From Eunapius fragilis (lineage: Eukaryota; Porifera; Demospongiae; Spongillida; Spongillidae), in contig OY811983.1 of assembly GCA_963681505.1 (NCBI GenBank), positions 2,542,518 through 2,606,517 on the forward strand: a stretch of 64,000 nucleotides of DNA, written 5' to 3'. The position numbers were made by a program, and so were the translations under genes. Below the pieces are notes generated by a model. The model saw only the letters and a program-made list of their open reading frames with translations. It made no database searches and was not told where the DNA came from. Within the stretch, counting starts at the first letter, position 1. Each line of letters begins with the position of its first letter. Shown one piece after another: positions 13,298 through 51,214 of this stretch.

Positions 13298-15429
13298 TTA
13301 TCCATATCGTCTTCCACCTCCTCCTCCTCCACCTCTTCCACCACCTCCTCCTCCACCTCTTCCACCTCCTCCACTTCTTCCACTTCCTCCACCTCTTCCA
13401 CCTCCTCCTCCTCTTCCACCTCCTCCACCTCTTCCACCTCCTCCACCACCTCCTCTTCCACCTCCTCCACGTCTTCCACCACCTCCTCCTCTTCCACCTC
13501 CTCCACCTCTTCCACCATCTCCTCCTCTTCCACCTCCTCCACCTCTTCCACCTCCTCCTCTTCCACCTCCTCTTCCACCTCCTCTTCCACCTCCTCTCCC
13601 ATCTCCTCTTCCACCTCCTCTTCCACCTCCTCTTCCACCTCCTCTTCCACCTCCTCTTCCACCTCCTCTTCCACCTCCTCTTCCACCTCCTCTTCCACCT
13701 CCTGCTTGTGGTTTTCCACCTGGTTTTTGAAGCTTTTTTCCACCTGGTTTTCCAGGTTGTTTTCCACCTGGTTCTCCATTGCTTGGTGATGGCTGTTCTC
13801 CTGGCTCTCCAACTTCAGATGGAGGGGACTGGTCTCCTTCAGATGGGCGGGGCTGATCTCCTGGCTCTCCAACTTCAGATGAAGGGGGCTGTACATCTGG
13901 TTCCTGTGGCTGATCTTTTGTTCGTTTGGGTTGATCTGTTGGCCCCTGGGGCTGATCTGTTGGCCCCTGGGGCTGATCTGTTGGCCCCTGGGGCTGATCT
14001 GTTGGTTCCTTGAGTTGATCTGTTGGTCTCGCAGGCTGATCCGTTGGTTCCTGGGGCTCAGGTAACTGAACTGGCTGATCAGCAGGATTTGATGGAAGTG
14101 GTTTCCGATTATTGGGCTTGCGTAAAGGAGGACGGGTGTGGAATCGTCTCCTGTTTGGTAACCTGGGTCTCCATCGGATGTGTGGTCTCCAGTTTGGTAA
14201 TCTGGGTCTCCTTTGGTTAAATCCTCTCCATAACATTGGTCTCCATCGATTGAATGGTCTTGAGTAAAGCCGTCTAGGTCGTGAGGGTCTAGCCAGAGTG
14301 TATTGTCTCTCTCCTTCGTGTACTTCTTCCATGTTATACTCATTGTACCTTTGACGTGCATAATCATAATCCCTTATTGCTTGAGGCCGTCCATTCTGTG
14401 GCCACCATCTTGCTGGCACCACATCTATATAAGCATGAGATATTGAGTGATGGATGGTACACGTGTACTAACATGTGACTGATACCTTCTGAGGAGCCAT
14501 CTTTATCCAGCACCTCTGTAGAGTCATCTTCACCACTCTCTCCTTTAGGTGTAATTAATGCTGTGGTAAGGTAATATTAAGTAATGTAAAGTTATGTGCC
14601 AACTGAAGAATGCAAGCTGCTGTTACCGTCTGATGAGACACCCAGCATTACATCCCCATAACTGTCCCTCTTAGATTGCTCCTCTGAATCGATGTCATCC
14701 ATACTGTCATCTTCAAGCTCCTTTTCATTGCCTGCATAGTGGTAGTGGGTTAAATCCATGTTTTGAGAATCGAATGTATATGCAATGTGAGCTACTGATC
14801 AGAGTACTAGCAACTACCCTATGGAAATGCCATCACCTTCTGCCAGTAATGCATTATCAAACACATCAACTTGAGATGACTCCTCTGGATCAACATTGCC
14901 AACATTATCCACTTCAAGTCCCTCTCCATCCTCTACATACAGTGAGGTGGGGGTGGAGTAAGGGAACGTATAAGTTCTCTTGGGTCCATTGGTACCATGG
15001 GCATTGATCAAAGCAGGTGCAACTAAAGATTACCTTCAGATGAAACATCCTCATAGCTGCCATCGTTAGACCACAGCTGTAAATCAGTGTTATCCATACT
15101 GTCTTTTTCAAGCCCCTCTCCATTGCTTACATCATCTTTACATACAACCAATAGCATTTTAGAGATGAGTGGTTATTTATGGTTACTGGTTATAACAATG
15201 CAATCATTTTACATTTGTACATCACCATATTAAATCTCACCATTTGACCACTCTCCTGTACTGGCATCATTGATGCTGCCTTTGTCAATCATCCCTTCAT
15301 TACCTAATGCACCATCTAATATTTGATGCTACAAAATTACATCTTTCAAAAAAACGTACTGTATCGGATGCTCTTGCAGTTGCACAACACTGCAATGGTG
15401 GACCAGACCACCCAAGCCTTCACCAGCAT
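13298..15429 (-). CDS. Array gene copy 1: secreted acidic/Arg-rich/Gly-Arg protein
   Basis: I reconstruct seven exons (minus strand): 15429-15360, 15315-15241, 15135-15034, 14932-14837, 14731-14627, 14560-14486 and 14424-13298; 549 codons plus stop. All junctions are phase 1 and all introns short (44-105 bases). Exon 1 starts MLVKAWVVWSTIAVLCNC, a good signal peptide. Exons 2-6 are acidic (for example GEGLEKDSMDNTDLQLWS, LEDDSMDDIDSEEQSKRD) and exons 3 and 5 look like duplicates of each other. Exon 7 begins VVPARWWPQNGRPQAIRD, carries Arg-rich repeats (RLPNRRRF), then Pro/Gln repeats (GPTDQPQ), then a long Gly-Gly-Arg tail ending GRRYG. Cysteines are almost absent after the signal peptide. 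I do not recognise the family. Alternatives are an extracellular matrix or mineral-associated protein, or a precursor of a cationic peptide. Best-preserved long form in the array. Confidence 0.62.
13304..13706 (-). repeat. Trinucleotide-like coding repeat (Gly-Gly-Arg tail)
   Basis: The minus strand is built of GGTGGAAGAGGA-type units. Its gene frame reads GGRGGGRGG; the next frame reads VEEEVEEE; no stop occurs in either. The frame joined to the upstream exon is the Gly/Arg one. Confidence 0.85.
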
Positions 15430-15466
15430 CCTGCAGCTATGGTGTGAGAATGACTGCACGCTCATA

Positions 15467-15476
15467 CTTATATATG
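15467..15476 (-). promoter_or_regulatory. TATA box of array copy 1
   Basis: The minus strand reads GCATATATAAG about 40 bases before the ATG at 15429. The element is kept at the same distance in all six copies, implying a very short 5' leader of about 10-20 bases. Confidence 0.6.
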
Positions 15477-15723
15477 CACAGTTTGCATGTGTCAAGAACT
15501 CTCAAGGAAGTATTTGTTACACCTTGTATAAACAGCTGGATGCTATCACTTCTGTAACAATGGCTGTGAATCTAAACATTCTCCTGCAGGCTGTTTTTGT
15601 TTGGTAGTAGAACATACAGTGAAAGTGACTTGTGTAGGCCCGTTTTGATATGTGCCACTATTACATATGGCAACTGGGGTCACACAGCTCTGGACATAAT
15701 TCTTTTTTCTTTTCCCCCCCCAC

Positions 15724-15925
15724 AGGCTGCTGAGGGAAAGAAAGTGTACAGTGAGATCTATAACAACATATCATACTCTTTCCATTCCATGGCCTTTGAG
15801 ACTTCTGGTATTATAGCCCCACCATTTCAGGTAGAGCTAGCTGCTCAGTGCCTCTCAGTCTCATCTTAGTCTACTGCAGCAATCCTCCATGATTATCCAA
15901 AAGGGAGAATTGCAGCTGTTCTAGT
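15724..15925 (+). pseudogene. Reverse-transcriptase-type C-terminal fragment upstream of each array gene
   Basis: An acceptor-like CACAG is followed by an open stretch AAEGKKVYSEIYNNIS, MAFETSGIIAPPFQ, and in the less damaged copies ELAAQCLSHLSLLQQSS and MIIQKGELQLFW. The pattern (M-A-F-E-T-x-G, then L-S-L-L-Q-x...Q-K-G) resembles the extreme C-terminus of non-LTR reverse transcriptase polyproteins. Equivalent pieces are at about 25413, 31292, 33680, 42912 and 51504, each 280-300 bases upstream of an array gene start except 33680, which has no gene. Function unlikely. Confidence 0.35.
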
Positions 15926-15929
15926 GGGG

Positions 15930-17677
15930 TCATTGCCCCACTTCAAATACCCTAGCTTGTTTAAGTTGGGATTGTGCATGGATTTGCATGTCCGGTAAAT
16001 GGTGTTATATGTTTTAATGGCTGATTCAAGCCCAACTCAACCGTCTCACAGAATTGATTATGTCAAAATTAACCACCTCATGTACGCATGCGTACGATGG
16101 AGCATGTTGCGTCATATCAGTTGGTATTTAATCGGTAGAGACGGATAAGTAGATTTTAGTAATGAGATTGATATTAATTCCATATCGTTACATTCATATT
16201 AATTGAGGTCACATATGGTCCTTGATCATGCATAGGCATTGGTGGCACGCATCGCATTTTATGGCGAATGAATGATAAACCACAAGAACTAGGTGGCTAA
16301 TTTTATATTACAAAGGCTGACGAAAAAGATTTTACAGATGTCATCTGAACAACGCAACTGCCTCCAAGCTCAATTACAAATAAGAAATTTAGAATGAAAT
16401 CAGAGATACATGCATGGATTGCATGAATGCATTAATAATCCATAGTTTTAAGATTTCTTGCTTACATTTTCTTGTTGGTTGGTTAGTTATTGAGCATAAC
16501 TGTTACTGATATTGAGAAGATTTTCCCAATATAAGTTTTATGTATAATAATGGTTGGTCCATTCAAATATATTACAAGCAATAACCTAAAAAGCAGACCC
16601 TCCCGCACCACCCCCTTTCGGTGAACCACGCCCATTTCTCACTTAATTCTAACTTTTCATTATTGGTGCCCCCCCCCCCCCCCCCCTTTCAAAATTCCTG
16701 GATCCGCCCCTGACAACTCAATACCATTTTGCTGCCCTCCACATCAATTATTCATCGTTCTAAGTCACGCACTTTTAGGGGGTACGCCTTCTCACGAAAA
16801 TCATCTATACCCGCTGTTAATGTGCAATACAGGCTTCATGTATATCATATGTGTTGTCTCATACATGTACATTGGATTTTAGGGTGGTTCAAAGCAGAAG
16901 AGATTGCTTTTGTGAAGGTTGAGAGTGATGTGGATGTGGATGGTGTACTGGTCGTATCTCGGTGTGTGGTACTGGATCATGACAGGTGCTACGGAACGTA
17001 GGTTCCGTATGTGTCATTTCAGCCACTTCGGAAGCTATATCTCAGCTTAGAAATGCTTCCAGCCATTCATTTCTATAAGCAAAACATTGCATCATTCCCT
17101 CTGTGGAACGAACCTATATCTGTTGTAAGGGGCTTCGGCGTGTTGGTACAACTGCTTGGTGAACAGGTAGCAGACCCATCGTGTTTCGGTACCTAGTGTG
17201 TGAGTTAATCACATGCAGCAAAGTCCAATTTTGTATTTAAATGTTAAGAATGAGTTTATGTGTGAAACGCGTACTGTCAAAGGTAGACCAAAGTTAGGCG
17301 TTATGTGCAAATGTCTTATAGTTTGGTGGGTTATATTCATTTAACTGGCCGCGGACCGACATATGTTTCGGTACCTCTCGTGCACGGAAAAGGCAAGCTA
17401 GATAGCATTTAGACACATCTACGCAGTTACTATGATCAGTTGAAGGGAACGCACGTACATGTATAGTGATTAAAGTTGTATCTAAGGCATATAACACCAA
17501 ATGTGTCACGTGCCGAAACGCGGATCATTTCTAATTATCTCCGCGTTTCATATCCAGGTATTCTTCTATCTATGGTTGAAGGAACAGATGGCTACTAGCA
17601 GTCTAAGTGACACTGCTTCAGATGATAGATCTATAGCTTATGTTCATCCTCCTGGGTCATTTGCACGTGTCTCTCTT
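15930..17677. other. Array copy 1 upstream flank and unique sequence
   Basis: 15930-16600 matches the flanks of other units (for example near 27850-28150 and 43380-43700). 16600-17677 is unique, with a poly-C run at 16670-16686. No gene is recognised. Confidence 0.4.
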
Positions 17678-17894
17678 TTATTTCTCTTCATTGACAGGAC
17701 ACCATGCCTCCAAGGTCTGCTTCAGAGCAGCGCATGTAAACTCAGACTCCAGTTGGAAAGCTTCGTCGGACTGTATCGCCAGAACCGCCTCTTTCATAAA
17801 GTCTTTCGATTCTAAATCACAATATAGTATTGTTTCAAAAAGAAAAACATCATATTTTATAACTGACTTACGTTCACATGAAGAGCTAGCCATT
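17678..17894 (-). CDS. Small ORF, uncharacterised
   Basis: An open frame of 71 codons starts MASSSCERKSVIKYDVFLFE in a good initiation context (GAGAAAATGGCT), continues ILYCDLESKDFMKEAVLA and ends with CAALKQTLEAWCPVNEEK. Composition is protein-like and not repeat-driven. A GAAC|GTAAGT donor-like site six codons in means it could instead be a first exon. No family is recognised and no second copy is present. It sits just outside the inverted-repeat element beginning at 17975. Confidence 0.25.
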
Positions 17895-17974
17895 TTCTCC
17901 CGTTTCCAAAAAGCGGGACGTATGACGTCATAATTACGGCGAAACCATGACGGTCTCAGTGCAATGTCAATCCG

Positions 17975-22489: not shown

Positions 22490-25136
22490 TTATCCATATC
22501 GTCTTCCACCTCCTCCTCCACCACCTCTTCCACCACCTCCTCCTCCACCTCCACCTCTTCCACCTCCTCCACCTCTTCCACCTCCTCCTCTTCTACCTCC
22601 TCTACCTCTTCCACCTCCTCCTCTTCTGCCTCCTCCACCTCTTCCACCTCCTCCACCTCTTCCACCTCTTCCACCTCTTCCACCTCCTCCACCTCTTCCA
22701 CCTCTTCCACCTCTTCCACCTCTTCCACCTCTTCCACCTCTTCCACCTCTTCCACCTCCTCCTCCTCTTCTACCTCCTCCTCCTCTTCCACCTCCTCTTC
22801 CACCTCCTCTTCCACCTCCTTTTCCACCTCCTCCTGTTCCACCTGTTCCACCTTTTCCACCTCTTCCACCTCTTCCTGCTGGTGGTTTTCCACCTGGTTT
22901 TCGAAGCTTTTTTCCACCTGGTTTTTGAAGCTTTTTTCCACCTGGTTTTCGAGGTTTATTTCCATCTGGTTTTCGAGGCTTTTTTCCACCTAGTTTTCCA
23001 GGTTTTTTTCCACCTGGTTCTCCATTGCTTGGTGATGGCTGTTCTCCTGGCTCTCCAACTTCAGACGGAGGGAACTGGTCTCTTTTAGATGGGCGGGGCT
23101 GATCTCCTGGCTCTCCAACTTCAGATGAAGGGGGTTGTACGTCTGGTTCCTGTGGCTGATCCGTTGTTCGTTTGGGTTGATCTGTTGGTCCCTGGGGCTG
23201 ATCTGTTGGTCCCTGGGGCTGACCTGTTGGCCCCTGGGGTTGATCTGTTGGTCCCTGGGGCTGATCTGTTGGTTCCTTGGGTTGATCTGTTGGTCCCTGG
23301 GGCTGATCTGTTGGTTCCTTGAGTTGATCTGTTGGTCTCACAGGCTGATTCGTTGGTTCCTGGGGCTCAGGTAACTGATCAGTAGGATTTGATGGAAGTG
23401 GTGTCCGATTATTGGGCTGCAAAATGGAGGACGGGTGTGGAATTGTCTCCTGTTTGGTAACCTGGGTCTCCATCGGATGTGTGGTCTCCAGTTTGGTAAT
23501 CTGGGTCTCCTTTGGTTAAATCCTATCCATAACATTGGTCTCCATCGATTGAATGGTCTTGAGTAAAGCCGTCTAGGTCGTGAGGGTCTAGCCAGAGTGT
23601 ATTGTCTCTCTCCTTCGTGTACTTCTTCCATGTTATACTCATTGTACTTTTGACGTGCATAATCATAATCCCTTATTGCTTGAGGCCGTCCATTCTGTGG
23701 CCACCATCTTGCTGGCACCACCTCTATTTATTGAGTGATGGATGGTACACACGTACTAACATGTGACCAAACACGGGATACCTTGTGAGGAGCCATCTTT
23801 ATTTAGCACTTCCTTAGAGTCAGCTTCAGTGCTTTCTTCTTTAGGTGTAATTAATGCTATGGTAAGGTAATATTAAGTAATGTAAAGTTATGTGCCAACT
23901 GAAGAATGCAAGCTGCTGTTACCGCCTGATGAGACACCCAGCATTACATCCCCATAACTGTCCCTTATAGACTGCTCCTCTGAATCAATGTCATCCACAC
24001 CGTCATCTTCAAGCTCCTCTTCATTTCCTGCATACATAGGATTAAATCCATTTGTGAGAAGGTATTTTATGTGTATATGCGATGTGAGCTACTGATCACG
24101 GTACAACAATGTGAGCTACTGATCAGGGTACAATAATGTGAGCTATTGATCATGGTACAACAATATGAGCTACTGATCATGGTACAATAATGTGAGCTAC
24201 TGATCATGGTACAACAATGTGAGCTACTGATCAGGGTACAACAATGTGAGCTACTGATCATGGTACAACAATGTGAGCTACTGATCAGGGTACAATAATG
24301 TGAGCTATTGATCATGGTACAACAATGTGAGCTACTGATCATGGTACAACAATGTGAGCTACTGATCATGGTACAACAATGTGAGCTACTGATCAGGGTA
24401 CAACAATGTGAGCTACTGATCATGGTACAACAATGTGAGCTACTGATCATGGTACAACAATGTGAGCTACTGATCGTGGTACAACAATGTGAGCTACTGA
24501 TCATGGTACAACAATGTGAGCTACTGATCAGGGTTACCCTATAGATATGCTATCACCTTCTGCCAGCAATGCATCATCAAACACATCAACTTGAGATGAC
24601 TCCTCTGGATCAACATTGCCAACATTATCCACTTCAAGTCCCTCTCCATCCTCTACATACAGTGAGGTGGGGGTGGAGTAAGAGAACGTATAAGTTCTCT
24701 TGGGTCCATTGGTACCATGAGCATTGATCAAAGCAGGTGCAACAAAAGATTACCTTCAGATGAAACTGTATCATCATAGCTGCCATCATGAGACCACAGC
24801 TGTAAATTAATATCATCCATACTGTCCTTTTCAAGCCCCTTTCCATTGCTTACATCATCTTTACACATTACCAATAGCATTTTAGAGATGAGAGGTTATT
24901 TATGGATTACAATGCAATCATTTTACATTTGTACATCACCATATTAAATCTCACCATTTGACCACTCTCCTGTTCTGGCATCATTGATGCTACCTTTGTC
25001 AATCATCCCTTCATTACCTAATACACCATCTAATATTTGATGCTACGAAATTAAATCCAAAAAACGTACTGCATCGGATGCTCTTGCAGTTGCACAACAC
25101 TGCAATGGTGGACCAGACCACCCAAGCCACCAGCAT
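22490..25136 (-). pseudogene. Array gene copy 2, frameshifted in last exon
   Basis: The same seven-exon model fits: 25136-25070, 25029-24955, 24858-24754, 24652-24557, 24027-23923, 23856-23782 and 23723-22490. Exon 1 lacks one codon relative to copy 1 but keeps the signal peptide (MLVAWVVWSTIAVL). Exons 2-6 are open. In exon 7 the Arg-rich part (RPRLPNRRQFHTRPP) is followed by a one-base deletion near 23418 relative to copies 1 and 6. The predicted protein then runs out of frame and stops at 23338, losing the Pro/Gln and Gly-Gly-Arg tail, which remains open in the shifted frame down to 22490. Intron 4 is expanded by a 27-base minisatellite. Either a recent pseudogene, a short form, or a sequencing slip. 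Confidence 0.55.
24081..24536. repeat. 27-base minisatellite in intron 4 of array copy 2
   Basis: About 17 head-to-tail units contain AATGTGAGCTACTGATCATG. A single unit of this sequence sits in the same intron of the other copies, so the array is a local expansion. Units abut without spacers. Confidence 0.95.
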
Positions 25137-29451: not shown

Positions 29452-31002
29452 CTACACCTTATCCAACCTTCCAGTCAGCTGAAGTGGCTGAACAATAGGA
29501 TTCAGTGGTTCAGATGCAAGGGAGGTCTGGTTCCTGGGTAACCTAAGTTTCGATGGGTTGAATCGTCTCCGCCATGGTAGCCTGAGTCTCGATTGGTTGA
29601 ATCGCCTCCTGTTTGGTAACCTGGATCTCCTTTGGTTGCATCGTCTCCTATTTGGTAACCTGGATCCCCTTTGGTTGAATTGTCTCCTGTTTGGTAACCT
29701 GGATCTACATCTACATTGGTTGAATCGTTTCCTGTTTGATATCCCGCGTCTACATTGATTAAATCGTCTCCTGTTTGGTCTACATCGGTTAAATCGTCTC
29801 CTGAGTTTATATCGGTTAAATTGTCTCCTGTTTGGTATTCTGCATCTACATCGATTAGATCGTCTCCTGCTTAGTCTCCCTCGGTTGAAACATCTCCTAT
29901 TGGGTAAACAGGGTCTTCTTTGATTAAATCGTCTTGAGCAAGGTGATCGCTGGTCTCCTCTCGATGCAGTCCCCATGCTCTCTATATACATAAGCATGAA
30001 ACTATTGTAAACACGTACAAATTTGTTGTGACCAAAAAGGGATACCTTCTGAGGAGTCATCTTTATCCAGCATCTCTGTAGGGTCATCTTCAGCACTCAC
30101 TCCTTTAGGTGTAAGTAATGCTATGGTATTAACTATTTCAGTACTAAGATATGTACTACAACTGAAGGATGAAAAGTACGTGCACACACACAGAGATTGA
30201 AGGTCACCTTCAGACGAGACACCCAGCATTACATCCCCATAACTGTCCCTCTTAGTCTGCTCCTCTGAATCAATGTCATCCATACTGTCATCTTCAAGCT
30301 CCTCTTCATTACCTGCATAGTGGTAGAGGTTTAAATCCATTTTTGAGAGCGTATATGCAATGTGAGCTACAGATCAGAGTACAAGCAACTACCCTATAGT
30401 AATGCCATCACCTTCTGCCAGTAATGCATCATCAAACACATCGACTTGAGATGACTCCTCTGGATCAACATTGCCATCATTATCCACTTCAAGTTCCTTT
30501 CCATCTTCTACATACAGTGAGGTGGGGGTGGAGTAAGGGAACGTATAAGTTCTCTTGGGTCCATTGGTACCATGGGCATTGATCAAAGCAGGTGCAAGTA
30601 AAGATTACCTTCAGATGAAACATCCTCATAGCTGCCATCATTAGACCACAGCTGTAAATCGATGTCATCCATATTGTCCTTTTCAAGCCCCTCTCCATTG
30701 CTTACATCATCTTTACACATAACCAATAGCATTTTAGAGATGAGAGGTTATTTATGGACACTGGTTATAACAATGCAATATTTTATATTTGTACATCCCC
30801 ATATTAAATCTCGCCATTTGACCACTCTCCTGTACTGACATCATTGATGCTGCCTTTGTCAATCATCCCTTCATCACCTAATGCATCACCTCATATGTGC
30901 GATGCTACAAAATTAAATTCAAAAAAACGTACTGTATCGGATGCTCTTGCAGTTGCACAACACTGCAATGGTGGACCAGACCACCCAAGCCTTCACCAGC
31001 AT
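29452..31002 (-). CDS. Array gene copy 3: secreted acidic/Arg-rich protein, short form
   Basis: Seven exons: 31002-30933, 30889-30815, 30710-30609, 30507-30412, 30312-30208, 30120-30046 and 29981-29452, all phase 1 and open. Exon 1 encodes the signal peptide seen in copy 1. Exon 2 ends at a GC donor (GCGAGA) where the other copies have GTGAGA. The last exon differs from copies 1, 2 and 6: it starts ESMGTASRGDQRSPCSRRF, then repeats RLPNRRRFNQRR-type units for about 110 residues with scattered Cys, and ends NPIVQPLQLTGRLDKV without a Gly-Arg tail. Predicted precursor about 350 residues, acidic in the first half and extremely basic in the second. Function unknown. Confidence 0.58.
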
Positions 31003-33583: not shown

Positions 33584-34430
33584 TAGTGTAGGCCCGGTTT
33601 GATATGTGCCACTATTACATTTGGCAACTGGGGTCATGCGGCTCTGGACATAATTCTTTTTTTTTTTTTTTCCACAGGCTGCTGAGGGAAAGAAACCGTA
33701 CAGTGCATGAGATCTATAAGAACATATCCTATTCTTTCCATTCCATGGGCTTTGAGACTTCTGGTGTTATAGCCTCACCATTTCAGGGAGAGCTAGCTGC
33801 TCAGTGTCTCTCTCATCTTAGTCTACTGCAGCAATCCTCCATGATTATCCAAAAAGGAGAACTGCAGCTGTTCTAGTGGGGTTATTGCCCCACTTCAAAT
33901 ACCCTAGCTTGTTTAAGTTGGGATTGTGCATGGATTTGCATGTCCGGTAAAGGTGTTATGATATGTTTTAATGCCTGATTCAAGCCCAACTCGACCGTCT
34001 CTATATCTAAATTGACCACCTCACATTCGCATGCGTACGATGGACAGTGTATTTAATCGGTAGAGTAATGAATTGAGATTAATTCCATATAGTTAAATTC
34101 ATGTTAATTGAGGTCACATAGTTATGGCAGCTACAAAAAGCGGCACACAAACTGATACATTCTACAATGGTTGCGGTCCTTGATCATAGTACAGTAGCGG
34201 CTCGCACATTGCGACAATTTGGAATCCCACATTGGGAACATACAGTATCCCTACCCTTATATCAACCCCCCTAATACCATGGGGGTTGATATGAGGGTAG
34301 AGTGCATGTGGGAAGGTTTTGTGTTCCTAGCGATGGCCTCAACCCACTTATGAGTTCACCTTGTGAAGGAATCTTATTAGAAGGTGGTTTATGTCAACTA
34401 TGCCCCTGTTGATCCTCCCAGCAGATATTA
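33584..34430. repeat. Gene-less fragment of an array unit
   Basis: 33584-34190 matches the region upstream of the array genes, including the reverse-transcriptase-type fragment (near 33680). 34191-34430 is a diverged left arm of the Tc1-like element. There is no copy of the array gene here. Confidence 0.65.
34251..34300. repeat. Hairpin
   Basis: CTACCCTTATATCAACCCCC is paired with GGGGGTTGATATGAGGGTAG across a 10-base loop with one mismatch. It interrupts the diverged Tc1-like arm. Confidence 0.85.
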
Positions 34431-37430: not shown

Positions 37431-39667
37431 ACATGAACAGGAATACAAGATGCAGCAGAATACACTAATCAGAATAAATGCACTAAATAACGAATGCTAT
37501 TATTAATACATACATACATATCCAGACACACTGAGACACACTGGCTATGAAAGTGACAATGAGGAACTATCCCCCTCCTGAAGGGAACAGCCACATCGTA
37601 AGAGGAGGGCTCGGGCATTGGCTCGCACAAGAGTCAAATTAAGGCGGCCATACAAGCTGCAGACAACCTTGGACTTGGGGGAGTTGGTCCTTGTGGCAAG
37701 GTATGATGCAAGCCGTGAAAAAGCTTGCATCGCTTCGTTGCCCCAGGCTCCATATGACTCGGCCACAAGGGAAATACATGTCCACCCTAGCTCGGAACAC
37801 TTGGCATCATTGGCAGAGTGCTTCCTTAGCTCAGCAGCAACCGCTGCTGACCCTGCTGTGCGACCCGCTTCAGAGATAAGAGTAGGGTTAAGCGGAGACA
37901 CCACAGTAAGGTCAAAGGCAGCAGGCTTGCCACAGAGCCAATTGGAAGCTAGGATGTCAGCAGGGCGTGTGTTCCGAAGCTCATGTCCTAGTCCACTACC
38001 GGCCTCTGCCTTCGCGCTGATGCAGGCATGATGGCAGGTTTGAAGCACTACATCCCTGAGCTTGTTGTGCCTGGATACAGCATCACCACCTCTCTTACAT
38101 GTTATTGCATGGTGACCTAGGGGATCCAAGGGATGTTCTGGACACAATGCACAGGGAGGTGAGCCAGGTGAGGTGTTTAGCCCCAGCCACCACTTGATGG
38201 CCATTTGGTGCTCGTTGGGGTCTAAGCTTAGACCCAGGCCTGGAGATGGTACTACAGAGAGCCAAGCAGAGGCATGGGGAGAGGAGATAGATAGGAGACG
38301 AGCCTTGTCAGCCACAGAGCTCTGGGATAGAAGAGAGTTAAATTGAATGTTTTCTAATGCAGCTGATAGAGTGTGTTGTCGGCAAGGAGAAGATGCAAGA
38401 CTGTTAATATTAATTGCATTCTCAGGGGGAACACACCTATTGTAGGAATTGACCGCATCAGCCAGGAAATTATCTGATGGTGAGGCAAGGCCTGCAGTAC
38501 TGATGGAGGCGATAAAGGCTGCATTAGAGTGATGAGCTAGTGAACGAAGCCCCAGGCCACCTCTGCTTAAGCTCAACTGGGCCTGCATCCAAGAACTGTC
38601 AGTAGTGTCAATAGCTTGGCACTCTGTGAAGGTGCACCTAACCTGCTCATCAAAGGCATGCAACTCATCCAATGCCAGGGATGGGGGAGTGGAACGTGCA
38701 ATATGGACCAATTTGGTAAATCCACCACACATGCGTAGTAGAATGAGAGCAATCTGAGGATCACATGACCCGAGCTTAACCAGGGAGGATAGCAAAATGG
38801 AGGCAGCAGCACGTTGAGAGGCAATAAATGATGAACAAAATGCAACATCCCCTATGGGGGCTCCAAGGATGATAAGATTGGGAGTACAAGATTTGTTCAT
38901 CTGAGAAGGGAATACACTGAGGTCACCTTGGCCAAAAAGCTCACATTTAGATGGATTTAGATGGAGCCCCAATGAGGGACCTAAATCTTGAAGTAGACAT
39001 ACAACATGCTGGACAGAGGTAGATGGGCCGGCCACCACCCCATCATCCAGGTACCATGCATTGAAAAGTAAGTCTTGGCAACTTTCCTCCTTGGAGATGG
39101 AAAGGACCAGATGGTGCAGGACCAAGGCAAAGTAGAAGGGGCCTAGGGGATCCCCTTGCTGCACACCAGCCTCAGAAGTCAAAGCTCCCAAAGAATGCCA
39201 CAGGAAAGGGTGTTGGCCATAACACCATGTTGTCCATGGGAGGAGAAGGGGAAAATGTAGGGTGCATTGGTCAAGGAGGGACTGGCGAGACACTAGGTTG
39301 AAGGCATTTTTCATATCAACCTTCAAGCAGACAAATTCAGGGTCGTGCCAATGATTATCAAGACAACGTCTGAGGCCATGGATTACCTTCTCACATCCTT
39401 GGGGGAGAGCAACACCAAACTGAAAAGGTTGAAAGAAAGCAGAAGCATCTTCCTTAATCAAACTGCATAGACATTTGCTGGTGAGTCGGCGAAGTGATTC
39501 ACCCACTGCGATGGGCCTGATGTCCTGTGTACCTTTCCTTAAAGCAACTAAGCTGCCCCCGGCCATGTACTGGGAAATTGCAGCTGGGGCTTGTCCAGAG
39601 GCGAGGAGATTTATTATACCCCGAAGGAGGGAGCAGATGGAAGTAGGAACTGGAACTTCAGCCACAT
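37431..39667 (-). mobile_element. 5'-truncated non-LTR retrotransposon
   Basis: It splits a repeat that is uninterrupted at 27990-28010 and 43520-43540 (CAACTGAAAT followed by CAGAGATATATGG). Only AT is shared at the two junctions, so the target duplication is 2 bases or absent. The element's 3' end is at the left, with a TACATACATACATA stretch in its untranslated tail. Its 5' end at 39667 lies just before the reverse transcriptase domain, a typical truncation. Confidence 0.8.
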
Positions 39668-39698
39668 CAGAGATATATGGATTGCATGAATGCATCAA
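37545..39698 (-). CDS. Reverse transcriptase with C-terminal restriction-like endonuclease
   Basis: One uninterrupted frame of 717 codons. RT motifs run in order: RPIAVGE (61-67), KVDMKNAFNLVSR (126-138) with the first catalytic Asp, QQGDPLGP (180-187), WYLDDG (215-220) with the Asp pair, and LGLHLNPSKCELFG. A CCHC knuckle (516-534) follows, then SRHNKLRD (542-549), RPADI (578-582) and FDLTVV (595-600), the layout of restriction-like endonucleases in R2-type non-LTR elements. The first ten codons (MMHSCNPYIS) come from the flanking target repeat, so the Met is accidental and the true N-terminus was lost at insertion. The domains look intact, but without its own 5' end the copy is probably not expressed as in the full element. 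Confidence 0.82.
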   Translation of the reverse strand: MMHSCNPYISDVAEVPVPTSICSLLRGIINLLASGQAPAAISQYMAGGSLVALRKGTQDIRPIAVGESLRRLTSKCLCSLIKEDASAFFQPFQFGVALPQGCEKVIHGLRRCLDNHWHDPEFVCLKVDMKNAFNLVSRQSLLDQCTLHFPLLLPWTTWCYGQHPFLWHSLGALTSEAGVQQGDPLGPFYFALVLHHLVLSISKEESCQDLLFNAWYLDDGVVAGPSTSVQHVVCLLQDLGPSLGLHLNPSKCELFGQGDLSVFPSQMNKSCTPNLIILGAPIGDVAFCSSFIASQRAAASILLSSLVKLGSCDPQIALILLRMCGGFTKLVHIARSTPPSLALDELHAFDEQVRCTFTECQAIDTTDSSWMQAQLSLSRGGLGLRSLAHHSNAAFIASISTAGLASPSDNFLADAVNSYNRCVPPENAININSLASSPCRQHTLSAALENIQFNSLLSQSSVADKARLLSISSPHASAWLSVVPSPGLGLSLDPNEHQMAIKWWLGLNTSPGSPPCALCPEHPLDPLGHHAITCKRGGDAVSRHNKLRDVVLQTCHHACISAKAEAGSGLGHELRNTRPADILASNWLCGKPAAFDLTVVSPLNPTLISEAGRTAGSAAVAAELRKHSANDAKCSELGWTCISLVAESYGAWGNEAMQAFSRLASYLATRTNSPKSKVVCSLYGRLNLTLVRANARALLLRCGCSLQEGDSSSLSLS

Positions 39699-41085: not shown

Positions 41086-42626
41086 CTACACCTCTTCCAA
41101 CCTTCCAGTCATCTGAAGTGGCTGAACAACAGGATTCAGTGGTTCAGATGCAAGGGAGGTCTGGTTCCTGGGTAACCTGGGTTTTGATGGGTTGAATCGT
41201 CTCCGCCATGGTAGCCTGAGTCTCCGTTGGTTGAATCGCCTCCTTGGTAACCTGGATCTCCTTTGGTTGCATCGTCTCCTATTTGGTAACCTGGATCTCC
41301 TTTGGTTGAATTGTCTCCTGTTTGGTAACCTGGATCTACATCTACATTGGTTGAATCGTTTCCTGTTTGATAACCCGCGTCTACATTGATTAAACCGTCT
41401 CCTGTTTGGTCTACATCGGTGAAATCGTCTCCTGAGTTTATATCGGTTAAATTGTCTCCTGTTTGGTATTCTGCATCTACATCGATTAGATCGTCTCCTG
41501 CTTAATCTCCATCGTTTGAAACATCTCCTGTTGGGTAAACAGGGTCTTCTTTGATTAAATCGTCTTGAGCAAGGTGATCGCTGGTCTCCTCTCGATGCAG
41601 TCCCCATGCTCTCTATATCCATTAGCATGAAACTATTGTAAACACGTACAAATTTGTTGTGACGAAAAAGGGATACCTTCTGAGGAGTCATCTTTATCCA
41701 GCATCTCTGTAGGGTCATCTTCAGCACTCTCTCCTTTAGGTGTAAGTAATGCTATGGTATTAACTATTTCAGTACTAAGATATGTACTATAACTGAAGGA
41801 TGAAAGTACGTGCACATACACACACAGAGGTTGAAGGTCACCTTCAGACGAGACATCCAGCATTACATCCTCATAACTGTCCCTCTTAGATTGCTCCTCT
41901 GAATCAATGTCATACACACCGTCATCTTCAAGCTCCTCTTCAGTATCTGCATAGTGGTAGAGGATTAAATCCATTTTTACGTATATGCAATGTGAGCTAC
42001 TGATCAGAGTACAAGCAACTACCCTATGGAAATACAATTACCTTCTGCCAGTAATGCATCATCAAACACATCGACTTGAGATGACTCCCTGGATCAACAT
42101 TGCCAACATTATCCACTTCAAGTTCCTCTCCATCCTCTACATACAGTGAGGTGGGGGTGGAGTAAGGGAACGTGTAACTCTTGGGTCCATTGGTACCATG
42201 AGCATTGATCAAAGCAGGTGCAACTAAAGATTACCTTCAGATGAAACATCCTCATAACTGCCATCGCTAGACCACAGCTGTAAATCTATGTCATCCATAT
42301 TGTCCTTTTCAAGCCCCTCTCCATTGCTTACATCATCTTTACATATAACCAATAGCATTTTAGAGATGAGGGGTTATTTATGGATACTGGTTATAACAAT
42401 GCAATCATTTTACATTTGTACATCACCATATTAAATCTCACCATTTGACCACTCTCCTGTTCTGGCATCATTGATGCTACCTTTGTCAATCATCCCTTCA
42501 TCACCTAATGCACCACCTAATAATTGATGCTACAAAATTAAATTCAAAAAACGTACTGTATCGGATGCTCTTGCAGTTGCACAACACTGCAATGGTGGAC
42601 CAGACCACCCAAGCCTTCACCAGCAT
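41086..42626 (-). pseudogene. Array gene copy 4, one-base deletion in exon 4
   Basis: Exons by comparison: 42626-42557, 42516-42442, 42336-42235, 42136-42042, 41946-41842, 41751-41677 and 41612-41086. The signal peptide exon and acidic exons are like copy 3, and the last exon is of the short type (ESMGTASRGDQRSPCSRRF then RLPNRRRFNQRR-type units, ending TGRLEEV). Exon 4 is 95 bases instead of 96: ACTCCCTGG replaces ACTCCTCTGG near 42089, which throws the downstream exons out of frame. All other exons are open in the expected frame, so the lesion is recent, is bypassed by skipping exon 4 (which is phase-neutral), or is a sequencing error. Confidence 0.55.
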
Positions 42627-44295: not shown

Positions 44296-44331
44296 TTCCT
44301 CTATTTTTTCATTATCATTTTTTATCCATTA

Positions 44332-44574: not shown

Positions 44575-44644
44575 CTAAAGCGATTGGTATAATTTGCGCT
44601 CTTTAAAACCATTCCTATCCCGAGTTATACTCACCCGAGAAGAA

Positions 44645-44685
<41 letters not shown>

Positions 44686-44880: not shown

Positions 44881-44919
44881 GTCAATTCCTATATAGGAAC
44901 TACTATCGTAATTCCTGAT

Positions 44920-45912
44920 AGGCAAAAATATCTCTTCAGTGTAGCAATAAATCTGGTTGTTACAGAAGTCGTGCGGCATAAATTGCAGCTTAGACCGGCT
45001 GCCCTTCAAAGTGGCAAGCTGAACGTTGGTGAACAAAAGATACAGCACTTCTAATGTTAGTTGCCTCAGTAGTTATGACTGCATTTGAAGGCTAGTACAA
45101 GGCACAGACACAGTCATTGACTTGAATTATATAAGGATCATGCATAAATGCATTGACATAAGTTTAACCTGACAAATGTTGTATAGCTCAACAATTCACT
45201 CAAACAGTCAATCTGCTTTGCCTTAGACAAGTACCTCTGTACTCAATGAGTTCATTGTACAGATCACACATGTCAAGTGATAGTTTGCATGATGGAGAGA
45301 GAGATAGAGAGACAGCAGGGTTCACATCCAATGAGGAGAAACCATTAGATGTGCACTTGCATCTAAAAGACACGATATATTGTAACCACTAAATAGTGAT
45401 TAGTGCAATGACAAAACAAAGCGTTCCAGGCTGGTAGATGCTATAAAAATGTATAACCCATAGCTATGAGTCATTCAATTCTTCATTAAGCAGCACAAAA
45501 TGTTTATGGAAATCACAAATCACAAATCACCTAGCCGGGTATACTCTATTCGGTATTACATTTAAATCTGTACCTTCACCCCAGACTCCTAGCTAGGAAA
45601 TGGTAGCACCCTCTTTGGCCAATTCCTGGATCCGCTGATGCAGGGTAACTCCACCGTTTTCGGTTCAAAATTATCATCAACAAGAATTACCCACTTTCTG
45701 CTGTTGTGTATGCGATGTAAACAATGATATATACAGTAGTATGATTGCATCAATTCAAAGCAACTGAGCATATGTACATAAAATATACACACTTTGAGTG
45801 TAACTACGTTATTTGTAGCAGAATGTTACAAAATGCATACAACAGTACCAGTCCTATTTCTTGTTTTTAGTTTTATCCAAATCTAATTCTTCCACTCATC
45901 TGTATTCTCCGA
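44920..45912. repeat. Shared 3' flank of array copy 5, second part
   Basis: Resumes the flank match (AAATCTGGTTGTTAC onward) to the 3' end of array copy 5. Confidence 0.75.
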
Positions 45913-47368
45913 CTACACCTCTTCCAACCTTCCAGTCAGCTGAACAACAGGATTCAGTGGTTCAGATGCAAGGGAGGTCTGGTTCCTGGGTAACCTGGGT
46001 TTTGATGGGTTGAATCGTCTCCGCCATGGTAACCTGAGTCTCCGTTGGTTGCATCGCCTCCTGTTTGGTAACCTGAGTCTCCTTTGGTTACATCGCCTCC
46101 TGTTTGGTAATCTGGATCTCCTTTGGTTGCATCGTCTCCTGTTTGGTAATCTGGATCTCCTTTGGTTACATCGCCTCCTGTTTGGTAACCTGGATCTACA
46201 TCTACATTGGTCGAATCGTTTCCTGTTTGATAACCCGCGTCTACATTGATTAAACCGTCTCCTGTTTGGTTGTATGCATCTACATCGATTAGATCGTCTC
46301 CTGCTTAGTCTCCATCGGTTGAAACATCTCCTATTGGGTAAATAGGGTCTTCTTTGATTAAATCGTCTTGAGCAAGGTGATCGCTGGTCTCCTCTCGATG
46401 CAGTCCCCATGCTCTCTATACATAAGCATGAAAATTGTACACACGTATACAAATTTGTTGTGACTAAAAAGGGATACCTTCTGAGGAGCCATCTTTATCC
46501 AGCACCTCTGTAGGGTCATCTTCAGCACTCTCTCCTTTAGGTGAAACTAATGCTGAAAGTACGTGCACGCACACACAGAGATTGAAGGTCACCTTCGGAC
46601 GAGACACCCAGCATTACATCCTCATAACTGTCCCTCTTAGACTGCTCCTCTGAATCAATGTCACCCATACCGTCATTTTCAAGCTCCTTTTCATTACCTG
46701 AATAGTGGTAGAGGATTAAATCCATTTTCTATATGTATATGCAATGTGAGCTACTGATAAACAATATCCTAATTACCTTCTGCCAGTAATGCATTATCAA
46801 ACACATCAACTTGAGATGACTCCTCTGGATCAACAGTGCCAACATTATCCACTTCAAGTCCCTCTCCATCCTCTACATACAGTGAGGTGCGGGTGGAGTA
46901 AGAGAACGTATAAGTTCTCTTGGGTCCATTGGTACCATGGGCATTGATCAAAGCAGGTGCAACTAAAGATTACCTTCAGATGAAGCATCCTCATAGCTGC
47001 CATCTTTAGACCACAGCTGTAAATCGATGTCATCCATATTGTCCTTTTCAAGCCCCTCTCCATTGCTTACATCATCTTTACACATAACCAATAGCATTTC
47101 AGAGATGAGGGGTTATTTATGGTAATTGGTCATAACAAAGCAAACATTTTACATTTGTACATAACCATATTAAATCTCACCATTTGACCACTCTCCTCTA
47201 CTGGCATCATTAATGCTGCCTTTGTCAATCATCCCTTCATTACCTAATGCACCATCTATTATTTGATGCTACACAATTACATCTTTCAAAAAACGTACTG
47301 TATCGGATGCTCTTGCAGTTGCACAACACTGCAATGGTAGACCAGACCACCCAAGCCTTCACCAGCAT
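45913..47368 (-). CDS. Array gene copy 5: secreted acidic/Arg-rich protein, short form
   Basis: Seven open exons: 47368-47299, 47255-47181, 47075-46974, 46872-46777, 46697-46593, 46552-46478 and 46415-45913, all phase 1; 341 codons plus stop. Signal peptide exon as in copy 1. The acidic exons include EDGEGLEVDNVGTVDPEESS. The last exon is of the short type with four consecutive 13-residue units (RLPNRRRCNQRRS), more regular than in copies 3 and 4, and ends VVQLTGRLEEV. Intron 5 is only 40 bases. No disabling lesion is seen; with copy 3 this is the best-preserved short form. Function unknown. Confidence 0.6.
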
Positions 47369-47405
47369 CCTGCAGCTATGGTGTGAGAATGACTGCACGC
47401 TTATG

Positions 47406-47415
47406 CTTATATATG
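47406..47415 (-). promoter_or_regulatory. TATA box of array copy 5
   Basis: The minus strand reads GCATATATAAG about 40 bases before the ATG at 47368. Confidence 0.55.
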
Positions 47416-47654
47416 CATAGTTGCATGTGTCAAGAACTCTCAAGGAAGTATTTGTTACACTTTGTAACCAGCTGGATGCTATGCTTGATGGGTAAGTACA
47501 CATTGTAATTATGAATAGCAATAAACAACTTAATTTTGTTTCCTGCGCTGGCCATTATTTTTTATTTGGTAATTTATGTGGGATCGAAAGGGGCCTTAGC
47601 GCATTTTTTTTCGAATTTCATATTCTAAGAGGCACCAAACGTCATCTACAACTT

Positions 47655-47912
47655 CCACCTTACGCATTGGAAATTTATCATGGAGTTACAGTGGTCTGAA
47701 TTTTTAAAATTTATACATGCATTTTAATAGCACGAATTAAATTTGATGCTCCTTCCTGGAATATGTGCTAGGTATCTTTTCGCTGTCTCGATCCCATAAT
47801 TACCATTACAATATTTTAGTGTAATTAAATGTATACTTTAATATTTTCAAAACAATACATGTACAATACAGATATGTTATTGCTATAATATTTATTTTAA
47901 TGAATCTATAGG
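47655..47912. repeat. Direct repeat flanking array copy 6, left
   Basis: About 255 bases (from TTACGCATTGGAAAT to TTTTAATGAATCTA) recur in the same orientation at 51806-52057. The pair brackets the unit carrying array copy 6. Confidence 0.85.
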
Positions 47913-48255
47913 AGGCGGGTGGCTAAATCATTGGTGCGAATCGAGCGGGGGACCGTGCACGCACTTCACAGCTATATCTCCGTAACGGATGAAGTAAAAA
48001 TTAACAAACAGAACTTATCAATGGCGACAGGACCCTTCTAAGTACGTACCCTATTTGAAGCGATTCGAACGCTCCCTACACGACGATGTGGCCGTTTGGA
48101 ACCTATGGGGTATTGGACCTTGTAACATCCGCATGAATAAGACACCAAATTTTAGATACCAATAACACACCAAAGTGTATTTTCACGTATATAGTAATGG
48201 TGCTGTATGTTGTGTCAGTTAAAAATAGGAACCCGATAGTGTTAACATTTCGGAA

Positions 48256-48487
48256 TGTATATAAATCCACAAGGAACGTTCCATATATAGGAAGTCGATG
48301 ACCCAAAGTGTTTGAAGATACACAGTATCAATTGTAACATAAAGCATTTTATTACTGAGGAAGATAAATCAATGTATAAAAATCCACAATGTATATAAAT
48401 CCGCAAGGTTCGTAGAACGTTCCATATATAGGAAGTCGATGACGCAAGGTGTACAGTACCAATTGTAACATAAAGCATTTTATTACT
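48256..48487. repeat. Tandem duplication of about 130 bases
   Basis: Two copies contain GTTCCATATATAGGAAGTCG and CATAAAGCATTTTATTACTG, at 48256-48358 and 48389-48487. Confidence 0.85.
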
Positions 48488-48775
48488 GAAGGGTCATTTT
48501 CTCTGGAACTGTTCCGTTTATTTATTTTATTGCTCTATACATCAATATAATATGGATCAGGGTAGATTGTACACAACAGTCAATGATGAGAAGAAACCTT
48601 TTCCAACTAAATTAACAGTTCTGTTGCAACTATCTGCCAGGGGAATTTATATAATGCAGTAAGAAGCCATTTTCAACAGAAAGTTCTGGTACCACCTGAT
48701 TCAATACAGCCTTTACAAGACTCCGCTTATCAGGCGAATCACCTTTAGTCATTCCTCATTGTTTTGCTGTACCCG

Positions 48776-48845
48776 GCATATATATATATATAATTATATA
48801 TATAATTATAATTATATATAATTATAATTATAATTATATATATAT
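48776..48845. repeat. AT-rich palindromic tract
   Basis: Alternating TATATA and ATAATTAT blocks with self-complementary symmetry. Confidence 0.85.
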
Positions 48846-49020
48846 GAAACACGTTTTTAATACAGAGATGTTAAAGTATCTAATTTCAACCTTCAACTTT
48901 CTGGAGCAGCACTGCACAAATGCCATATACACATATATGAAGAGGCATGCGCTAACACATGATTATAATATGACGTTAGCGCAACGTTACGTCAATGTTG
49001 ACGTTGGATTAGAAGTATAA

Positions 49021-49174
49021 CACAGCAAAAAAAAGAGGGTCGAATCAAATTTTGATTTGCATTTGATTGATCAATGACATTCTGATACAGGATTGATACA
49101 ACATTCTGTATCAGAATGTCATCGATCAATCAATTGCCAATCAAAATTTGATTCGACGCGTTTTTTTTGCTGTG
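49021..49174. mobile_element. 154-base MITE with TAA target duplication
   Basis: Termini CACAGCAAAAAAAA and the complement, arms continuing with TCGAATCAAATTTTGATT, flanked by TAA at 49018-49020 and 49175-49177. No ORF. Confidence 0.85.
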
Positions 49175-49536
49175 TAAATGAATCGCGTTTATGTTTATAT
49201 GACGTCACCGCGGGTACGGCTACGCAGTTGAAGTTATAAACACCGCCAAAAAGGTGGAGTTGAAGTAATTTTTCTACTATACTTGAAGTATATTCCGGTG
49301 TGCTGCTGGTAAATACGCATGCAATACCGAGTTCACATTATCGAGATTAGAATGGTTCTGGAACCGTTCTTTCACGTGCTACATATAGCATCTCCCCCTT
49401 TAAATTGCATCTGGTGGTGTGTTTTTAAATGAATACAATTGCATTCTGTTTCTAAGCAGTGGTGTGTGTATTAAAAAGTACATTGGTATTATCATTATCC
49501 ATTTCTTCTTGTTCCTCTTCTTGGTTTTCCACCTGG

Positions 49537-51214
49537 TTATTTTCCAGCTGGTTTTCTAGGTTTATTTCTAACTAGTTTATTTCCACCTGGTTTTCTAGGT
49601 TTATTTCTAACTAGTTTATTTCCACCTGGCTTATTTTTGCCTGGTTTTCCAGGTTTATTTCCACCTGGTTTTCCAGGTTTATTTCCACCTGGTTTTCCAG
49701 GTTGTTTTCCACCTGGTTCTCCATTACTTGGTGATGGCTGTTCTCCTGGCTCTCCAACTTCAGACGGAGGGGACTGGTCTCCTTCAGATGGGCAGGGCTG
49801 GTCTCCTGGCTCTCCAACTTCAGATGAAGGGGGCTGTACGTCTGGTTCCTGCGGCTGATCTGTTGTTTGTTTGGGTTGATCTGTTGGTCCCTGGGGCTGA
49901 TCTGTTGGTCCCTGGGGCTCATCTGTTGGTTCCTTGGGTTGATCTGTTGGTCTCACAGGCTGATCCATTGGTTCCTGGGGAGTACCTTCTGGTTCCTGGG
50001 GAGTACCTACTGGTTCCTGGGGCTCAGGTAACTGATCAGCAGGATTTGATGGAAGTGGTATCCGATTATTGGGTTTGCGTAAAGGAGGACGGGTGTGGAA
50101 TCGTCTCCTGTTTGGTAACCTGGGTCTCCATCGGATGTGTGGTCTCCAGTTTGGTAATCTGGGTCTCCTTTGGTTAAATCCTCTCCATAACATTGGTCTC
50201 CATCGATTGAATGGTCTTGAGTAAAGCCGTCTAGGTAGTGAGGGTCTAGCCAGAGTGTATTGTCTCTCTCCTTCGTGTACTTCTTCCATGTTATACTCAT
50301 TGTACTTTTGACGTGCATAATCATAATCCCTTAATGCTTGAGGCCGTCCATTCTGTGGCCACCATCTTGCTGGCACCACCTCTATATAGGCATAAGATAT
50401 TGATTGATGGATGGTACACACATACTAACATGTGACCAAAAAAGGGATACCTTCTGAGGAGCCATCTTTATTTAGCACCTCTGTAGGGTCATCTTCAGCA
50501 CTCTCTTCTTTAGGTGTAAGTAATGCTATAGTCAGGTAATATTAAGTAATGTAAAGTTATGTGCCAACTGAAGAATGCAAGCTGCTGTTACCGCCTGATG
50601 AGACACCCAGCATTACATTCCCATAACTGTCCCTCTTAGACTGCTCCTCTGAATCAATGTCATCCATACCGTCATCTTCAAGCTCCTCTTCATTACCTGC
50701 ATACATAGAGGATTAAATCCATTTATGAGAAGGTATATGCAATGTGAGCTACTAATCAGGGTACAACAATTCTCTTGGGACCATTGGTACCATGAGCATT
50801 GATCAAAGCAGTTGCAACTAAAAATTACCTTCAGATGAAACATCATCATAGCTGCCATCATTAGACCACAGTTGTAAATCGATGTCATCCATACTGTCCT
50901 TTTCAAGCCCCTCTCCATTGCTTACATCATCTTTACACATAACCAATAGCATTTTAGAGATGAGAGGTTATTTATGGATAACAATGCAATCATTTTACAT
51001 TTGTACATCACCATATTAAATCTCACCATTTGACCACTCTCCTGTACTAGCATCATTGATGCTACCTTTGTCAATCATCCCTTCATCACCTAATACACCA
51101 TCTAATAATTGATGCTACAAAATTACATCTTTCAAAAAACGTACTGTATCGGATGCTCTTGCAGTTGCACAACACTGCAATGGTGGACCAGACCACCCAA
51201 GCCTTCACCAGCAT
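49537..51214 (-). CDS. Array gene copy 6: secreted acidic/Arg/Pro-rich protein, exon 4 lost
   Basis: Six exons: 51214-51145, 51101-51027, 50930-50829, 50696-50592, 50525-50451 and 50381-49537; 423 codons plus stop. The signal peptide and acidic exons match copy 1. Exon 4 is physically missing: a deletion joins the intron 4 minisatellite unit (GTACAACAATT at about 50760) to intron 3 (CTCTTGGGACC). Because exon 4 is symmetric phase 1 the frame is kept. The last exon has the long-form start (VVPARWWPQNGRPQAL), Arg repeats, Pro/Gln repeats, then PGGNKPGKPGGNKPGKP units and ends RKPAGK, so the Gly-Gly-Arg tail of copy 1 is replaced by a Gly-Lys-Pro tail. Flanked by 255-base direct repeats. Confidence 0.6.

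Follow-up and report, generated by a model that had tools for sequence, protein, structure and literature searches.

What kind of protein is encoded by an array of sponge paralogs in which acidic exons precede an arginine-rich end? The question arises from contig OY811983.1 of Eunapius fragilis, of which a stretch of 64,000 nt (the window, to which all positions refer) was analyzed. Six minus-strand paralogs fill positions 13298-51214, boundaries that the first-pass annotation had drawn exactly, 13298 being the last base of the stop codon of copy 1 and 51214 the first base of the ATG of copy 6. The gene structure, as read from the sequence, is also the one proposed there, with a signal-like exon 1 (E1), small acidic phase-1 exons, and a basic last exon (E7) in all six copies. 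E1-E6 were located in every copy, with the sole exception of E4 in copy 6, and the suggested seven-exon model thus holds for five of the six copies but not for copy 6. The phase-1 rule likewise applies to all junctions of copies 1, 2, 3, 5, and 6 but not to copy 4, where the loss of 1 nt in E4 throws the downstream junctions out of phase. Among the 35 introns listed, a set that leaves out the 132-nt E3-E5 intron of copy 6, the donor is GT in 34 and GC in one (intron 2 of copy 3), and the acceptor is AG in all 35. Copies 1, 3, 5, and 6 were correctly recognized as fully open after splicing (549, 350, 341, and 423 aa, respectively). The damaged copies are the other two of the six, namely, copy 2, whose model stops at 302 aa due to a frameshift in the last exon, and copy 4, with one base lost in E4.

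The last exon comes in two types that have one 39-nt unit in common, A in copies 1, 2, and 6 and B in copies 3, 4, and 5. The exons, the TATA box, and the repeats with coordinates given below are all on the minus strand. Copy 1 (type A) spans 13298-15429, with exons E1 15429-15360, E2 15315-15241, E3 15135-15034, E4 14932-14837, E5 14731-14627, E6 14560-14486, and E7 14424-13298. Copy 2 (type A, 23338-25136) consists of E1 25136-25070, E2 25029-24955, E3 24858-24754, E4 24652-24557, E5 24027-23923, E6 23856-23782, and E7 23723-23338, and its Pro/Gly-rich frame runs on, out of phase, to 22490; the 529-nt E4-E5 intron of this copy contains a 27-nt minisatellite of 16.8 units (24082-24534). In copy 3 (type B, 29452-31002), the exons are E1 31002-30933, E2 30889-30815, E3 30710-30609, E4 30507-30412, E5 30312-30208, E6 30120-30046, and E7 29981-29452, and in copy 4 (type B, 41086-42626), E1 42626-42557, E2 42516-42442, E3 42336-42235, E4 42136-42042, E5 41946-41842, E6 41751-41677, and E7 41612-41086, the last of which is open by itself (174 aa). 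Copy 5 (type B, 45913-47368) comprises E1 47368-47299, E2 47255-47181, E3 47075-46974, E4 46872-46777, E5 46697-46593, E6 46552-46478, and E7 46415-45913, and copy 6 (type A, 49537-51214), E1 51214-51145, E2 51101-51027, E3 50930-50829, E5 50696-50592, E6 50525-50451, and E7 50381-49537. A TATATAA box lies 45 nt upstream of the ATG of copy 1 (15468-15474), and this box and a TCACACC motif at -18 recur with identical spacing in 6/6 copies, which presumably are transcribed. At 33677-33963, an upstream unit stands as an orphan, with no gene attached. No AATAAA is present within 800 nt past the stops of copies 1, 3, 4, 5, and 6.

The arginine-rich RLPNRRRFNQRR-type repeats that had been ascribed to the whole array are typical of copies 3, 4, and 5 but not of copies 1, 2, and 6. 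Type B E7 consists of Arg/Cys-rich repeats of 13 residues (39 nt), with 6.1 units at 29537-29779 in copy 3 and further arrays at 41190-41410 and 46008-46270 in the other B copies. Type A E7 combines a short Arg/Trp/Pro core (14135-14424 in copy 1) with Pro- and Gly-rich repeats, PTDQPQG and GEPG/GGK(N), to which GGGR repeats are added in copies 1 and 2. The PTDQPQG repeats have a 21-nt period (13898-14058 in copy 1, 7.7 units; elsewhere, 23144-23367, 10.7 units, and 49843-49980, 6.6 units), and the Gly/Arg repeats a period of 12 nt in copy 1 (13310-13703, 33.1 units) and of 9 nt in copy 2 (22533-22876, 38.2 units). The long G-X-Y runs of collagen-like proteins are lacking, the sole run among four copies being one of 42 residues in copy 1. 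E7 contains 0 or 1 Cys in type A and 10-11 in type B; Ser accounts for 3-8% and Lys for 1-7% of E7 in the open copies (1, 3, 5, 6). The portrayal of the basic C terminus as fast-changing was only partly right, given that the type A core varies least of all stretches compared: 4/290 nt differ in each of the three pairs among copies 1, 2, and 6, compared with 3.9-8.2% for the E1-E3 genomic stretch (15 pairs) and 3.2-10.1% for B E7 (3 pairs).

In another frame, the 39-nt unit of the Arg repeat reads as a Gly/Asp-rich sequence (GDPGYQTGDDATK), and the basic block may therefore stem from an acidic repeat by frame change. Whether this acidic frame (offset 0) is the one used in E7 was considered, and it was rejected: although most of the repeat is free of stops in it, a TAA interrupts each of the three B copies and stops also occur in copies 1, 2, and 6, and in type B it is reachable only via a later AG. 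By contrast, 5/6 copies have an open Arg frame, to which the first AG gives a phase-1 junction. Synonymous changes in B E7 do not separate the two frames (Arg frame, 17 vs. 15.9 expected; acidic frame, 15 vs. 15.8), and the single apparent stop change there is an artifact of two adjacent changes in one codon.

As a check on chance, each sequence was shuffled 2000 times with its dinucleotides preserved; E7 remained open in 1, 0, 0, and 0 of these shuffles for copies 3, 4, 5, and 6, respectively, the 288-nt core of copy 1 in 10/2000, and its joined E2-E6 in 0/2000. The reading frame is protected in this family. Exons E1-E6 contain 3 distinct gap runs vs. 32 in the introns (Fisher p=3e-8, with site totals entered by hand); gaps in multiples of three amount to 2/3 and 10/32, respectively, so that the evidence lies in the low number of exon gaps, not in the multiples. 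Stop-making changes are absent among 77 changes, with 3.5 expected (p=0.027). Amino acid selection was not demonstrated: the pooled Nei-Gojobori pN/pS is 0.58 in frame vs. 0.80 and 0.83 out of frame, the polarized ratio is 0.70 (p=0.064), a permutation test gives p=0.155, and variable columns are spread evenly over the codon positions (21, 23, 24). In the full A-type E7 (copies 1 vs. 6), pN/pS is 0.97 in the coding frame, above the other frames (0.82 and 0.68). Nor do the 53 nonsynonymous and 24 synonymous substitutions (19.8 synonymous expected) include a nonsynonymous excess, hence no sign of diversifying selection, and charge-changing substitutions are not depleted in either E2-E6 (28 observed vs. 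25.9 expected) or B E7 (16 vs. 13.8).

The charge split is pronounced in the open copies. After removal of the predicted signal peptide, the acidic part comprises 119-151 residues with net charges of -40, -46, -38, and -31 in copies 1, 3, 5, and 6, respectively, whereas the E7 part carries +36, +55, +51, and +16. Charge segregation exceeds the maximum of 200 shuffles in 4/4 open copies, with moderate kappa values (0.27-0.38). The hydrophobic N terminus common to the six copies (mean Kyte-Doolittle hydropathy of 1.99 over 11 residues) would be compatible with secretion, the putative signal peptide having been called from this hydropathy window. Fold prediction for copy 3 E7 yielded no fold (mean pLDDT 39.9), which, with 3 input sequences, is weak evidence of disorder. 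An RGD adjoins the acidic/basic junction in 3/3 B copies, a weak lead, all three residues being frequent in these proteins. The idea that the acidic front neutralizes the cationic back until processing found little support, with an R-X-[KR]-R convertase-type site in 1/4 open copies and the first dibasic run of E7 only at residue 51 (copies 1 and 6) or 17 (copies 3 and 5).

Searches of the genome recovered no member of the family outside the array. With E values of up to 1 allowed, Pfam gave no match for copy 3 or the first 430 of the 549 aa of copy 1, NCBIfam no match, and Rfam 0 matches; a PDB search returned none for copy 3 and five chance-level matches for copy 6 E7 (E 0.16-0.38). Collections of bacterial/archaeal and viral contigs yielded 62 and 8 pattern matches, respectively, none of them relatives, a result with no bearing on other sponges. 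Among the titles listed by literature searches, in which no peptide strings were used, none concerns such a family, from which we do not claim absence from print. Mammalian salivary proline-rich proteins, a tandem family in which an acidic N-terminal part is followed by Pro/Gly/Gln repeats of varying number, resemble the sponge proteins in layout but lack the Arg-rich core. The assertion that no family with this layout has been described was too strong, because the layout, though not the sequence, appears in PMC10945409, PMC3820600, and PMC11794139. It is known in matrix or adhesive and antimicrobial proteins, which makes the array a candidate well worth testing for either putative role.

Tentatively, and at somewhat less than an even chance, we favor a disordered, charge-split secreted matrix protein, that is, a block polyampholyte. 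The opposite charge blocks would drive self-association by coacervation, and the Arg block could anchor the protein to extracellular polyanions, be it proteoglycan or spicule silica; cysteines might cross-link type B, and in type A, the Pro- and Gly-rich repeats would be added as spacers. The hardly constrained residue order and variable repeat number follow the pattern of disordered repeat proteins. A parallel in charge layout is the tick salivary adhesive GRP77, which is described in PMC11794139 as coacervating, with a strongly negative N terminus and a positive Arg/aromatic C terminus; like the predicted sponge proteins it is secreted and glycine-rich, but it has only 77 residues, aromatic stickers, and no Arg-repeat block, and coacervation, shown for GRP77, is a prediction for the sponge family. 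A more specific version, a demosponge counterpart of silaffins in which secreted acidic-then-arginine blocks organize silica beside silicatein, with A and B as exchangeable modules on an acidic chassis, seems to us a long shot. In keeping with the matrix reading in general, the silicatein position is Ser in 6/13 distinct C1-peptidase active-site strings of the genome, which has silicatein-type genes and therefore belongs to a siliceous demosponge. An acidic region precedes basic repeats as in the diatom silaffin precursor sil1p. However, sil1p, in PMC3820600, has KK/RR motifs and RRIL repeat ends, in place of which the sponge family has Arg/Pro/Gly/Cys chemistry; Lys/Ser-rich KXXK/RRIL repeats are missing (KXXK 2, 0, 0, 5 and RRIL 0 in copies 1, 3, 5, 6). 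Suberites silintaphin-1 (PMC2755733, PMC3820600) shares Pro/charged repeats but has a PH domain, which Pfam did not detect in copy 3 or the searched part of copy 1; silintaphin-2 shares alternating charge clusters but is a 15-kDa protein (same sources). Glassin and perisilin of glass sponges, according to PMC10772126 and PMC10282587, are secreted, repetitive, low-complexity proteins with fast-changing repeats, both silica-associated; yet, they are His-rich, whereas the mature sponge chains contain 3/526, 0/327, 0/318, and 3/400 His (copies 1, 3, 5, 6).

A close rival, which we regard as possible, is a secreted protein of the Hydra periculin/arminin kind with an antimicrobial or microbiome-shaping role. 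Its cationic C-terminal part would disrupt microbial membranes or bind nucleic acids, kept in check by the acidic part during synthesis. Hydra antimicrobial proteins are described, in PMC10945409, as small, charge-bipartite, and Cys-patterned, with clustered, genus-restricted paralogs, and the predicted signal peptide, the acidic and basic halves of the four open copies, the clustering without a match elsewhere in this genome (the scope of the search), and the Cys of type B E7 agree with that description, as may the TATA promoter of all copies. Still, the sponge proteins are not small (341-549 aa) and differ by their repeat arrays and two types of C terminus, a complex Cys pattern does not extend to type A, and tails of such length, rich in Pro and Gly, are uncommon; the scarcity of convertase-type sites and the lack of any sign of diversifying selection also speak against this explanation. 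Less plausible, indeed unlikely, is a young, weakly constrained family near neutral drift, once real genes but now of little function and open mainly because they were recently duplicated and converted. The nonsignificant amino acid constraint (p=0.155), the unconserved charge, the two frameshifted copies, the near-identical A cores, which point to recent homogenization, and the orphan upstream unit fit such drift; the paucity of exonic indels, the missing stop-making changes, and the retention in 6/6 copies of splice sites and of the distances of the TATA box and TCACACC do not. Highly improbable, finally, is a basic protein of RGG-like type that stays in the cell or its nucleus to bind RNA or DNA, with a hydrophobic N terminus other than a signal peptide: the long RGG-type Gly/Arg tracts of copies 1 and 2 and the Arg-rich cores would suit it, but the shared N-terminal hydropathy, the Cys-rich type B, and the failure of Pfam to find an RNA-binding domain in copy 3 or the searched part of copy 1 argue against it.

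If the matrix reading is correct, the family would be a concrete candidate for silica shaping, where few demosponge proteins are known besides silicatein; PMC10282587 suggests that, in demosponges, further scaffold proteins of repetitive sequence, as yet unknown, may be required to shape the spicules. Should the proteins instead be antimicrobial, the charge-bipartite design of Hydra would extend to a sponge. Under either reading, a single array in which the same acidic chassis carries one or the other of two basic modules would be a tractable system for studying how young, predicted secreted proteins exchange modules.

All six genes of the array (copies 1-6) lie on the minus strand and comprise a signal-like exon (E1), acidic exons (E2-E6) and a basic last exon (E7). 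The E1 peptide is MLVKAWVVWSTIAVLCNCKSIRY, with the Lys missing in copy 2; in undamaged copies, E2-E6 measure 75-105 nt each and every exon junction is in phase 1. Introns are 40-132 nt long, the exception being a 529-nt intron of copy 2 that contains a 27-nt minisatellite. The E2 acceptor lies ~13 nt past a first TAG, and a 2-nt insertion near this site in copy 3 is intronic, so that the phase is retained. All six copies share TATATAA at 45 nt and TCACACC at 18 nt upstream of the ATG, and the in-frame upstream ATG found in five of them likely precedes the inferred transcription start. Pairwise comparison of the acidic exons against 500 shuffles shows a common origin of E3 and E5 (local score 39, shuffles reaching at most 14); E3/E4 (17 vs 13) and E4/E5 (18 vs 15) barely exceed the shuffle maxima, and the remaining 7 of the 10 pairs do not score above shuffles.

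Taken together, gap runs, stops, synonymous changes and pN/pS show that the reading frame is kept, whereas the sequence hardly is. Open frames extend far beyond shuffle expectation. Exons contain 3 distinct gap runs and introns 32 (counted without copy 2 for the E4-E5 intron; p=3e-8, resting on hand-entered site totals). Among 77 changes in E1-E6 (copy 4 E4 excluded), 53 are nonsynonymous and 24 synonymous, the latter vs 19.8 expected (p=0.155), and none creates a stop, vs 3.5 expected (p=0.027); out of frame, synonymous changes fall below expectation (13 vs 20.4 and 17.9). The pooled pairwise pN/pS, calculated over non-independent pairs, is 0.58 in frame vs 0.80 and 0.83 out of frame; one pair of copies reaches 1.41, and variable columns are spread evenly over codon positions. 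For E7 with Arg/Cys-rich repeats (type B; copies 3, 4 and 5), the Arg frame has a pN/pS of 0.65, compared with 0.87 and 0.83 for the two other frames. For the full type A E7 (copies 1 and 6), the coding frame gives 0.97 vs 0.82 and 0.68 elsewhere, which speaks against a coding reading.

Types A (copies 1, 2 and 6) and B diverge from E5 onward, with E5-E6 genomic divergence of 6.5-8.9% within and 10.2-22.4% between types. In type A, a core precedes Pro-rich and Gly-rich repeats, which vary in number. The 39-nt units of the two types agree at 32 of 39 positions at the best rotation (2000 shuffles give <=23), and both basic blocks therefore derive from one repeat. Another frame of the type B Arg-rich repeat (29452-29981, 41086-41612 and 45913-46415, minus strand) is strongly acidic, GDPGYQTGDDATK, and is broken by a conserved TAA in all three copies. 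Acidic parts carry net charges of -31 to -46 and E7 parts +16 to +55, and the mature proteins of open copies 1, 3, 5 and 6 sum to -4, +9, +13 and -15. Charge segregation exceeds that of 200 shuffles in all four (kappa 0.27-0.38); the substitution test revealed no avoidance of charge change. AlphaFold2, given the three B copies as input, yielded a mean pLDDT of 39.9 and pTM of 0.12 for copy 3 E7, with none of 175 residues at pLDDT >=70.

Copies 1, 2, 3, 4 and 6 share an upstream sequence (at 15725, 25408, 31287, 42906 and 51497), and an orphan copy without a gene (33677-33963) is perhaps the remnant of a lost unit. On the plus strand, this repeat (15725-16011 and five relatives) includes a stretch that is open and resembles an exon (in copy 1, AAEGKKVYSEIYNNISYSFHSMAFETSGIIAPPFQ); it may belong to another gene or to a mobile element. 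Copy 5 lacks it, its upstream 600 nt being unrelated to the others (43-47% different). Between copies 3 and 4, the array harbors a retroelement, a minus-strand ORF of 717 codons (37545-39698) that encodes a reverse transcriptase domain (PF00078, E 2.3e-17). The plus-strand ORF at 11629-12120, which matches the N-terminal domain of phage integrases below threshold (14.7 bits vs cut-off 27; E 0.043), is perhaps a tyrosine-recombinase element. Two short plus-strand first-exon-like stretches, MAAR(L/I)NNNLLLATDSYK, at 52782 and 57787 resemble the nicotinamide phosphoribosyltransferase N-terminus; all 23 matched PDB sequences are that enzyme, at E of just 1.2-1.5. For the long plus-strand tandem repeat at 58404-59241, open in several frames (GTYTEVC.GVPIQRSV), a Pfam search gave only a chance-level match.

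The window spans positions 2542518-2606517 of one of the 24 contigs of the assembly (218,937,333 bases). Genome-wide searches of this assembly with type A E7 (4 matches, namely three copies with copy 2 split in two pieces), type B E7 (5 matches, three copies), acidic-exon (22 matches, all within the array) and promoter-E1-E2 DNA (6 matches) queries returned nothing beyond the array, these counts being lower bounds since scoring covers the best candidates only. Searching with the C1 peptidase family yielded 84 matches, 30 of which were retrieved as loci; among 13 distinct active-site strings (61 loci), 7 have Cys and 6 have Ser, the latter of the form …CGASYAFA…. Ser at this position is the mark of silicatein, and the animal is thus most likely a siliceous demosponge. 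The presence of these silicatein-type genes is the whole of the array's tie to spicules.

Two readings of function are live: the product may be a polyampholyte with a matrix or adhesive role, or it may be an antimicrobial protein. The Cys residues of type B, the clustering of the genes and a parallel with Hydra antimicrobial proteins, as described in passages of PMC10945409, lean toward the latter. Against it, a convertase site is not conserved, although this counts for less than is implied by the first-pass annotation, in which the acidic front neutralizes the cationic back until processing, because signal-peptide cleavage is the sole processing mentioned for the Hydra proteins in those passages (PMC10945409). 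The repeat-rich tails, the RGD in the B copies, the low sequence constraint and the parallel with tick GRP77, as far as passages of PMC11794139 describe it, lean toward the matrix reading, with silica as one possible polyanion partner.
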